A stretch of DNA of 64,000 nucleotides from Prochlorococcus marinus XMU1412 (GTDB lineage Bacteria > Cyanobacteriota > Cyanobacteriia > PCC-6307 > Cyanobiaceae). Below the pieces are notes generated by a model, which was given only the letters and a program-made list of their open reading frames with translations, was not told the origin of the DNA and did not search any database. The stretch spans positions 320,519 through 384,518 of the forward strand of contig NZ_JAAORJ010000004.1 in NCBI RefSeq assembly GCF_017696315.1, in the 5' to 3' direction. Positions 11,047-54,756 of this stretch are shown here, piece after piece (within the stretch, counting starts at the first letter, position 1; every line of letters begins with the position of its first letter). The position numbers and the translations under genes were made by a program.

Positions 11047-11182
11047 ACTAAGTAATTTTACTTAGTAAAATAGTTAAAGCATTTAGGAAGTGCTTAGCTG
11101 GTTAAATCGGAGATTCTGAATTAACTAGGTCGTCATGAGCTTGCCAGTGGGATACCTGCAGGCTCTTTCAAATTTTAAGAGC
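11047..11182. other. hairpin-rich gene-free stretch, possible small RNA
   Basis: Between the hli promoter and 11302 no gene is convincing. The stretch holds a perfect hairpin ACTAAGTA/TACTTAGT (11047 to 11066, 4-base loop) and GCTCTT/AAGAGC (11162 to 11182). The sequence between them has higher GC than its surroundings (GGTCGTCATGAGCTTGCC). It may encode a small RNA; strand and ends cannot be set. Confidence 0.3.
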
Positions 11183-16551: not shown

Positions 16552-16831
16552 AACCTTTCAAAAATCTAGTTTCAAATTAGTTATTTTAAAATTAATTTCT
16601 AGTTACTAAATATACGAATATATAAATTTTTAAATAGGTAAAAAATATCTCATTTATAAGTTCTTCTTATAACGCATTAAAAAGTACTGTTTTCAAAAAC
16701 TTCAATAAATATTTAACTTTTTTAAAAAAGAAATTAGAATCCTTATTTCATATAAATAGATCCTCTATAAGTTAGCTTTATTACCTTTTCTTCTTGTTTT
16801 CTACAATATACGAATGACTTTCCATTGAAAT

Positions 16832-16944
16832 ACATGTTTACCATGTTGCAGCTCCTAAACTTGCTCAAGTCCCCGTCCTATGGCTTGAGTCGTACTGCGG
16901 TCTATCAGATGGTAGATCGGACGATTTTGTAGTATTCACTACAA
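16832..16944. ncRNA. candidate structured RNA with four hairpins
   Basis: Four stems follow one another in about 113 bases: ACATG/CATGT (16832 to 16846), CTCAAG/CTTGAG (16864 to 16889), TCTATC/GGTAGA with G-U (16901 to 16916) and TTGTAGT/ACTACAA with a 4-base loop (16927 to 16944). The stretch is more GC-rich than its surroundings and no gene covers it. The strand is not decided. The remainder of 16552 to 16980 is AT-rich and empty. Confidence 0.4.
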
Positions 16945-17127: not shown

Positions 17128-17481
17128 TATTTATTTTCCAATATAATTTTCAATTCAGCTTCTGCATTGAGAATATCAATTCTATTCTTAAGTAGTTTAA
17201 AAAATTTAATTATATTTTTCAAAATTAAACCTTCTTTAGGCATCAATAATAATATTATTTTAAAAATGAATATATCAATGAGCAAAAATACTGAATCCAT
17301 TGAAAAAACATAATTTTTGTAACCTATTTATACAATAAACAATAAAAACGTATGTTCAGATAATCTTGATCAATTAACCAATAAGGGCTAATTCAGAATC
17401 AACCACAATAATTGGTGATCTAGTTAACTTGCAGTGATATTTTTCTTTTGCTAAAAAAATAAAGCGGGCTAAAGTCCAATA

Positions 17482-17652
17482 CTCCACGAGGATTTAGTCC
17501 CCTGCCTAAAAGCTTAGAGTTCAAATTTTTCTTTTTAATATGCAACTATGCTTTATAAGGCAAATATCTTGATTGCTTAATAAATTTATTTTGTATATTG
17601 CTATTACAAAAATGATTGGTTTACTTAAATTAGTTACTAAATCCTCGTGGAG
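17482..17652. repeat. 17-bp perfect inverted repeat spanning a start codon
   Basis: CTCCACGAGGATTTAGT (17482 to 17498) and ACTAAATCCTCGTGGAG (17636 to 17652) are perfect complements 137 bases apart. The right arm contains the GTG start (17647) of the next gene and its upstream bases. In RNA the left arm would cover the start codon. The left arm also sits in a local stem (GCGGG-CTAAA with TTTAG-TCCCCTGC). The rest of 17128 to 17646 holds no convincing gene. Confidence 0.65.
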
Positions 17653-17766
17653 AAAGCTTTAGTAAATTTCTTTTACTTGTTACTAATAAGATCAGCCGAA
17701 TCTCATTATGGAGAATCATTTGTATCTGTAGAAGTTCCATCTAATTCAATCAAAAGTTTTTCTTGA
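17647..17766 (+). CDS. small SAESxYG protein, 39 aa, paralogue of 22085
   Basis: GTG start inside the right arm of the inverted repeat. The protein opens MEKALVNFFYLLLIRSAES and continues HYGESFVSVEVP. It aligns with the 35-residue product at 22085 (MEK, then KSAESYYGDS and EIP). A short hydrophobic helix precedes a conserved SAES-aromatic-YG motif. Function unknown; translation may be controlled by the inverted repeat. Confidence 0.6.
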   Translation: MEKALVNFFYLLLIRSAESHYGESFVSVEVPSNSIKSFS

Positions 17767-17911
17767 TTTTAGAAAGTTTTTAATACTTAAATTCATAGCT
17801 TTCTGAACATTCAATAACTATTTTGAGTTAAGTTGGTTAATTATCTCTATTGCAAATAAAGATAAGGTTGTTAATCTTGCACTTAAAGAATAAACTTAAT
17901 TTCTTAAACTG

Positions 17912-18121
17912 ATGCAATTTGATCATTTAAATTTCAACGAAGATGATGGCCTCATGTCAATAGAAGATTTAAGAGCTTTACGTCTTCAAAAAAAGAAAAT
18001 TGAAAGTGATAAGAAAGCCAGGAAGTATATCCTGGATATAAATCAAAGATATAGGAAAATGAGTACCCGCAAAAGTAATAGCTTTTTAAGGAATATGAAC
18101 CCTTTTAAAAAGGCCGCATAA
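17912..18121 (+). CDS. hypothetical basic protein, 69 aa
   Basis: A soluble protein with an acidic N-terminus (NFNEDDG) and a very basic remainder (LQKKKIESDKKARKY, RYRKMSTRKS), mostly helical. Such charge could mean nucleic acid or ribosome binding, but this is inference. A strong terminator follows at 18211. Confidence 0.65.
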   Translation: MQFDHLNFNEDDGLMSIEDLRALRLQKKKIESDKKARKYILDINQRYRKMSTRKSNSFLRNMNPFKKAA

Positions 18122-18240: not shown

Positions 18241-18446
18241 AGATATTTTTTAATTGAAACTCGTTATAAAATTAAAGTAATACTTTCCTAGAAGGCGAAA
18301 GTGATGTAAATCTTTTGTTTAACGTTTTTTATTACCACTTAATGAAAACTCTATATCTTAAACTAAATCCTCTTATTAAAAAATAAAAGTTTTAGCTTAT
18401 GGATCATTTCCCATAATTTATTGAATTTTTTCATTTGCGATTTTTA

Positions 18447-18650
18447 ATGGCTTCACCTACAAGTTGGGAATTCTACAAAGAAGTTGAAACTAAAATTCTA
18501 TGGGTCAATATTTGTACCCAAAATTTAGAAGGAGTAGCTATTTCGATCAATAAATGGTGGAAGACAAGATATCCAGGATACAAAATCAGAATAGTTTCTA
18601 AAAAAGAATTTGAGCTAGTAAAAATGCAAGCTGAGAAAAAGGAGAAATAA
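18447..18650 (+). CDS. hypothetical protein, 67 aa
   Basis: The ATG at 18447 is preferred to a TTG at 18435. The protein is soluble and has conserved-looking aromatic positions (TSWEFYKEV, INKWWKTRYPGYKIR) with a basic C-terminus. The WWKTRYPG segment suggests a compact small domain. I do not recognise the family. Confidence 0.65.
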   Translation: MASPTSWEFYKEVETKILWVNICTQNLEGVAISINKWWKTRYPGYKIRIVSKKEFELVKMQAEKKEK

Positions 18651-22084: not shown

Positions 22085-22192
22085 ATGGAAAAATCATTTC
22101 TAAATTTTATTTGTTGGATCCTATTAAAGTCAGCTGAAAGTTACTACGGAGATTCATTAAAAACAGAAATACCTTATACACCTTATTTTTAG
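22085..22192 (+). CDS. small SAESxYG protein, 35 aa, paralogue of 17647
   Basis: Opens MEKSFLNFICWILLKSAES and continues YYGDSLKTEIPYTPYF. The hydrophobic helix and SAESYYGDS motif match the product at 17647. No inverted repeat is seen at this start. Function unknown. Confidence 0.6.
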   Translation: MEKSFLNFICWILLKSAESYYGDSLKTEIPYTPYF

Positions 22193-54610: not shown

Positions 54611-54669
54611 TTAATACTTGTGATAATCTTTGTTGTCATACACGCTTGGACATCCTTTCTTTTAAGAAT

Positions 54670-54690
54670 GGGTCTGATATTTTCAGACCT
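54670..54690. other. hairpin between atpB and atpE
   Basis: GGTCTGA (54671 to 54677) and TCAGACC (54683 to 54689) form a perfect 7-bp stem with a 5-base loop in the 164-bp gap, without a T-run. It may be an mRNA processing or stabilising hairpin that raises atpE (c subunit) expression over atpB. Confidence 0.5.
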
Positions 54691-54756
54691 ACGCGATTAG
54701 ATATTTTGCCAGATTACAGACCCTTTGTAAAAGTGTCTGAATGTATTAGAAGAAAG

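Follow-up and report, generated by a model that had tools for sequence, protein, structure and literature searches.

A candidate antisense RNA complementary to the start codon of a small-protein gene in Prochlorococcus, with features of a type I toxin-antitoxin pair

A short stem-loop in Prochlorococcus marinus XMU1412 is perfectly complementary to the start region of a 39-codon gene that lies downstream of it. We consider it probable, from sequence comparison, that the stem-loop works in trans as an antisense sRNA against the start codon of the small protein and that the two form a type I toxin-antitoxin-like pair; the candidate sRNA would most likely hold the 39-residue protein switched off. 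The genome of Prochlorococcus is among the smallest of free-living phototrophs and encodes few protein regulators, and toxin-antitoxin pairs were considered rare or absent there. The pair occurs in three quarters of the near-complete genomes of the genus; if the proposal is true, it would come with a redundant guard RNA and be among the ocean's most widespread RNA-controlled small genes. It lends itself directly to testing, since the sequences of both partners are known, as is the register in which they pair.

Results

Inverted repeat and small gene

The window, which is the whole 64 kb stretch of DNA that was analysed, contains an inverted repeat with a left arm at 17482-17498 (plus strand, CTCCACGAGGATTTAGT) and a right arm at 17636-17652 (plus strand, ACTAAATCCTCGTGGAG). 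The arms are complementary at 17 of 17 positions across a spacer of 137 nt. A perfect 17-bp repeat had been reported at this place by the first-pass annotation, and the report was borne out: among perfect inverted repeats of 17 bp with arms 20-300 nt apart it was the only one in the whole 64 kb, and the chance expectation was 0.005 (mean of 200 order-2 Markov surrogates). By complementarity the left arm is the antisense segment. The right arm, the most conserved stretch of the leader, is the target segment and lies over the GTG at 17647 that starts the 39-codon ORF, as had also been annotated. The two arms are parts of separable modules, and left-only and right-only loci exist among relatives. 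Of 200 genomes sampled from the genus, 173 had a match to the region 17440-17770, in some cases to the hairpin alone.

The start of the small gene (17647-17766, plus strand, VEKALVNFFYLLLIRSAESHYGESFVSVEVPSNSIKSFS) is backed by the start codons of relatives. Among 118 relative loci the start triplet was GTG in 111, ATG in 4, TTG in 1 and another triplet in 2; pN/pS was 0.31 over codons 8-39, and the ORF showed third-position variation in 68 aligned loci. Because the triplet swaps almost solely to other start codons and a coding signal follows it, these comparisons identify GTG 17647 as the start and the 39-residue peptide as real. A frame further upstream, with an ATG at 17612 (MIGLLKLVTKSSWRKL), was dropped as a coding candidate because its start codon is not conserved.

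The AlphaFold2 model of the peptide consists of one predicted helix (residues 2-21; pLDDT about 90 over residues 1-20) and a disordered tail. No match to the peptide was found in Pfam, PHROGs, NCBIfam or PADLOC. The longest hydrophobic run is 11 residues, with no clear transmembrane span, and given this short run and the lack of a family match a membrane toxin is not evident. The peptide was present in 23 of 24 sampled Prochlorococcus genomes and absent from all of the roughly 276 genomes sampled from other genera, those of the same family included.

A promoter-like element (TTGCTATTAC, 17598-17607, plus strand), nearly invariant in 68 aligned loci, lies between the arms and upstream of the gene. 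Transcription would start at about 17614 and give a leader of about 35 nt. Folding and sequence comparison point to a weak stem-loop in this leader (ACTAAA...TTTAGT, 17636-17663, plus strand), which would present the target.

A diverged paralogue of the small protein (MEKSFLNFICWILLKSAESYYGDSLKTEIPYTPYF, SYYGDS type, ending in PYTPYF) is encoded at 22085-22192 (plus strand). No inverted repeat or antisense partner was found beside this gene, and its leader is conserved differently from that of the 39-codon gene. In a relative genome of 1,657,990 bases, which we take to be MED4, the two types form a tandem pair, the SYYGDS type coming immediately after the SHYGES type, which is that of the 39-codon gene (L184, 2005-2297, minus strand). 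Two small ORFs of unassigned family, at 17912-18121 and 18435-18650 (plus strand), adjoin the locus in the window; two genomes (L052, L070) lack the peptide module and have the hairpin near the first of these ORFs.

Stem-loop and its unlinked copy

The linked copy of the candidate sRNA is a 45-nt stem-loop with a conserved stem of 14 bp (17461-17505, plus strand, a match to covariance model R1), and the left arm makes up its loop and 3' side. The first-pass annotation had proposed that the left arm can also pair locally, and RNA folding did give a stem-loop at 17466-17500 that includes it. The stem is slightly damaged in XMU1412, with CCCCT at 17499-17503 against CCGCT in relatives. Across 27 distinct relatives, 96.3% of the stem cells were paired and three pairs were altered on both sides. 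The non-Watson-Crick cells, read on the plus strand, comprised 47 G-U and 3 A-C, which indicates that the plus-strand RNA is the structured molecule.

Just upstream of the hairpin is a promoter-like element of the extended -10 type (TTGCTAAAAA, 17448-17457, plus strand) that is conserved in orthologues, and transcription would begin near 17461. TTGCTA of this type precedes the left hairpin and the peptide gene alike. On the 5' side of the hairpin, CTAAAG (17469-17474, plus strand) can pair with CTTTAG at 17657-17662, lengthening the duplex in duplex and co-fold predictions. The linked hairpin has decayed in many genomes.

Beyond the genus the hairpin search gave only E values of about 0.007-0.01 in two incomplete genomes, which were treated as noise, and Rfam 15 gave no gathering-score match at 17461-17505. 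The peptide and hairpin family is confined to one genus and is new to Rfam, Pfam, PHROGs, NCBIfam and PADLOC. The only Rfam matches in the window were ATPC, Yfr20 and Glutamine-II. The ATPC RNA motif (RF01067) is at 54641-54731 (minus strand), and Yfr20, a known Prochlorococcus sRNA, is at 11077-11164 (plus strand). In MED4 Yfr20 belongs to genomic island 5, and its presence here suggests that the window is part of the corresponding island. The Glutamine-II riboswitch (RF01704), one of six in the XMU1412 genome, is followed by a 33-codon YRG-type peptide (MVNMYFNGKSFVYCRKQEEKVIKLTYRGSIYMK) in a Yfr6-like locus at 16743-16926 (minus strand); Yfr6 is reportedly described with a 33-residue frame.

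A second stem-loop with the 17 nt intact was found in XMU1412 at an unlinked site (G000:C2:395146-395190) without a peptide gene beside it, and this copy matches the target over 18 nt. The site is syntenic: in a comparison with 16 other distal loci, every locus aligned at one flank or more and 14 aligned at both. In 17 aligned distal loci the promoter-like element, the stem and the 17 nt were almost invariant and conservation dropped outside them, the conserved block running from the TTGCTATTTTTTT element to slightly beyond the stem. TTGCTA stands at an equal distance from the hairpin in the unlinked copy and in that of the putative MED4 genome (TTTGCTAAAAAGAT), which has its own stem-loop near 770.25 kb and the gene at 775.7 kb. 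In a genome of 1,641,879 bases the linked hairpin is at about 1,339.43 kb and the unlinked one at about 871.07 kb. The 2008 ncRNA table has no entry near 770 kb of MED4 (PMC2518516). As the sRNA would also be made from the unlinked gene, action in trans is indicated. When the genome was scanned for further trans targets, the only other near match had 2 mismatches and lay inside a trpG-like coding sequence, and it was rejected.

Pairing and co-occurrence

The predicted duplex spans the start codon. Its energy was -37.4 kcal/mol with the linked and -42.7 kcal/mol with the unlinked copy, against a window background with a mean of -17.9 and an sd of 4.6. Several changes in the target arm replace a base pair by G-U and so preserve it, as in the putative MED4 genome (CCTTGTGGAG). 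Several others, in target or hairpin, disrupt pairing; start codons altered to ATG are among these. Full 17/17 pairing between linked arms was kept in 61 of 118 loci and lost in 57. The compensatory changes between the arms that the first-pass annotation had looked to in related strains did not rise above those with shuffled partners (201 of 2000 shuffles reached the observed value).

Stem-loop and gene were then compared across 87 genomes at least 90% complete, by means of the covariance model and a protein profile of the SHYGES type, respectively. The gene was found in 66 and the stem-loop in all 66. Thirteen genomes had the stem-loop alone, none had the gene alone and 8 had neither. An unlinked stem-loop was present in 62 of the gene-bearing genomes, 10 of which had unlinked ones only. 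The naive p of 3.5e-6 ignores shared ancestry and partly follows from linkage, so the co-occurrence is support and not proof. Both gene and stem-loop were missing from a genome of 1,704,176 bases, presumably MIT 9515.

Discussion

The locus may be read as two tandem genes, a very short sRNA that is essentially one stem-loop, beginning near 17461, and then the peptide gene, whose mRNA would carry its leader of about 35 nt before GTG 17647. The loop and 3' side of the sRNA would pair with the start codon region over 17 nt (18 nt for the unlinked copy) together with CTAAAG/CTTTAG, and this pairing would block ribosome entry and repress translation at initiation; the duplex would probably be exposed to RNase III. 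A second, unlinked gene would make the same sRNA. In the genomes compared the peptide always comes with the sRNA, while the sRNA can occur by itself. The two therefore most likely work as a type I toxin-antitoxin module, in which the small protein would be the putative toxin. A separate RNA carrying the left arm and acting as an antisense regulator had been one suggestion of the first-pass annotation. The unlinked syntenic hairpin, the co-occurrence in 66 of 66 genomes and the plus-strand G-U pairs all speak for it.

One alternative keeps the sRNA and its target as proposed and disputes the toxin step alone. The peptide would then be an ordinary regulated small protein, possibly membrane-associated or a stress peptide, and we regard this as possible, though less than probable. 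It agrees with the absence of a clear transmembrane span and of a toxin family match, and some sRNAs and small ORFs of Prochlorococcus respond to light or phage with no known toxicity (PMC2518516). However, there are sRNA-only but no gene-only genomes, as is the case for type I antitoxins like orz (PMC11264685), and the presence of two sRNA genes for a single target suggests a cost to escaping repression.

A switch in cis, in which one transcript hides its GTG start by long-range pairing and the local hairpin is the alternative state, appears improbable. A 261-nt segment with the long pairing did fold at -58.6 kcal/mol (z -3.2 against shuffles), and the spacing of the arms is preserved in most orthologues. 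Nevertheless, the reading finds no support, since covariation between the local arms does not exceed that in shuffles. An adjacent hairpin accompanies 64 of 81 gene copies, whereas the other 17 lack one and yet each of their genomes carries the hairpin elsewhere. The syntenic hairpin stands free with its own promoter-like element, and the gene has its own between the arms. A single transcript concealing its own start, and a two-state design, had both been put forward in the first-pass annotation; the modules occur apart, and the second structure is better seen as the sRNA's own stem-loop. Independent divergence of the arms had been named there as evidence that would count against the idea. Such divergence is partly seen and weighs on the cis version, and the antisense part, in trans, stays supported. 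Sequestration in cis is possible at most as a side effect.

It is very doubtful that the arms are the terminal inverted repeats of a MITE-like element with an incidental overlap of the start codon. The two inverted copies are about 170 bp apart and each part is dispersed in relatives, as such an element might be, but selection acts on the start codon in the right arm, the arms occur alone at other sites, and hairpin-only copies occupy one syntenic place in many genomes. A MITE or insertion element was rejected on the same grounds: left-only, right-only and syntenic left-only copies show that the paired repeats do not move together, and the reading is already largely excluded. Viral contigs hold nothing but one chance match, an exact 17-mer in a DNA polymerase-like gene of an unrelated phage-like contig of 49% GC; the protein is absent from phage records and viral contigs, and a phage origin was rejected. 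We give hardly any credence to the idea that the left hairpin has nothing to do with the peptide and is an intrinsic terminator of the minus strand or a site acting at the DNA level. A T run does follow the stem on the minus strand in XMU1412, but it is not conserved, an A run taking its place in the unlinked copy. The stem changes that are G-U on the plus strand would be broken on the minus strand (47 versus 3), and the loop is conserved as much as the stem, something a terminator can do without.

Returning to the antisense sRNA acting in trans, its hairpin resembles an inverted copy of the stem-loop in the mRNA leader, and both share one design. A wider proposal, which we put forward tentatively and hold to be somewhat short of probable, is that Prochlorococcus has a type I family in which the sRNA arose as an inverted copy of the hairpin at the toxin's start codon, gained a second fixed site by duplication and now guards the peptide in trans. 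Plasmid antisense control RNAs of the CopA/CopT kind likewise set two complementary stem-loops against each other, each the inverted counterpart of its partner. Here, by contrast, the sRNA gene stands apart from its target and has a further copy at an unlinked site.

Within Prochlorococcus, the locus is distinct from two described pairs. Identity with Yfr6 was rejected because there is no Glutamine-II aptamer or YRG-type peptide here and the Yfr6-like locus is a separate one; identity with Yfr8/Yfr9 was rejected on only chance-level similarity to 339887-340241 of the putative MED4 genome. Yfr6/Yfr14 and Yfr8/Yfr9 of MED4 were suggested as toxin-antitoxin candidates in 2008 (PMC2518516), and Yfr6 is the glutamine-II/YRG-peptide RNA (PMC2864571). 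They belong to the same organism group and likewise join a short peptide ORF to a complementary RNA, but they are overlapping antisense pairs on opposite strands, whereas here the sRNA does not overlap and the peptide family is another.

In its predicted working the locus is nearest to those unconventional type I pairs whose complementarity spans 18-21 nt, a likeness rather than a claimed membership. Type I pairs have a small gene, usually of <60 codons (39 here), at least 15 contiguous complementary nt near the translation start or the leader (17 nt linked and 18 nt unlinked here), and a toxin gene that is never without the antitoxin gene (66 of 66 here). The ZorO/OrzO pair of E. coli O157:H7 likewise combines a small protein, of 29 aa, with a separate sRNA, 18 nt of perfect complementarity and tandem or duplicated loci (PMC3919570, PMC11264685), and antitoxin-only genomes are common while toxin-only ones are absent (PMC11264685). 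No family match was found between the ZorO protein and the 39-residue peptide, a putative toxin. OrzO is divergent and its 5' end pairs 73-91 nt upstream of the start, whereas the sRNA here is tandem, would use its loop and 3' side to pair directly across the start codon, and is also encoded by a second, conserved gene that is unlinked. ShoB/OhsC and TisB/IstR-1 are also unconventional type I pairs with independent sRNA genes and about 18-21 nt complementarity (PMC3919570). They come from other organisms, differ in sequence and have a divergent order in place of the tandem one; in the Prochlorococcus pair the predicted pairing covers the start codon itself, in a leader of probably about 35 nt.
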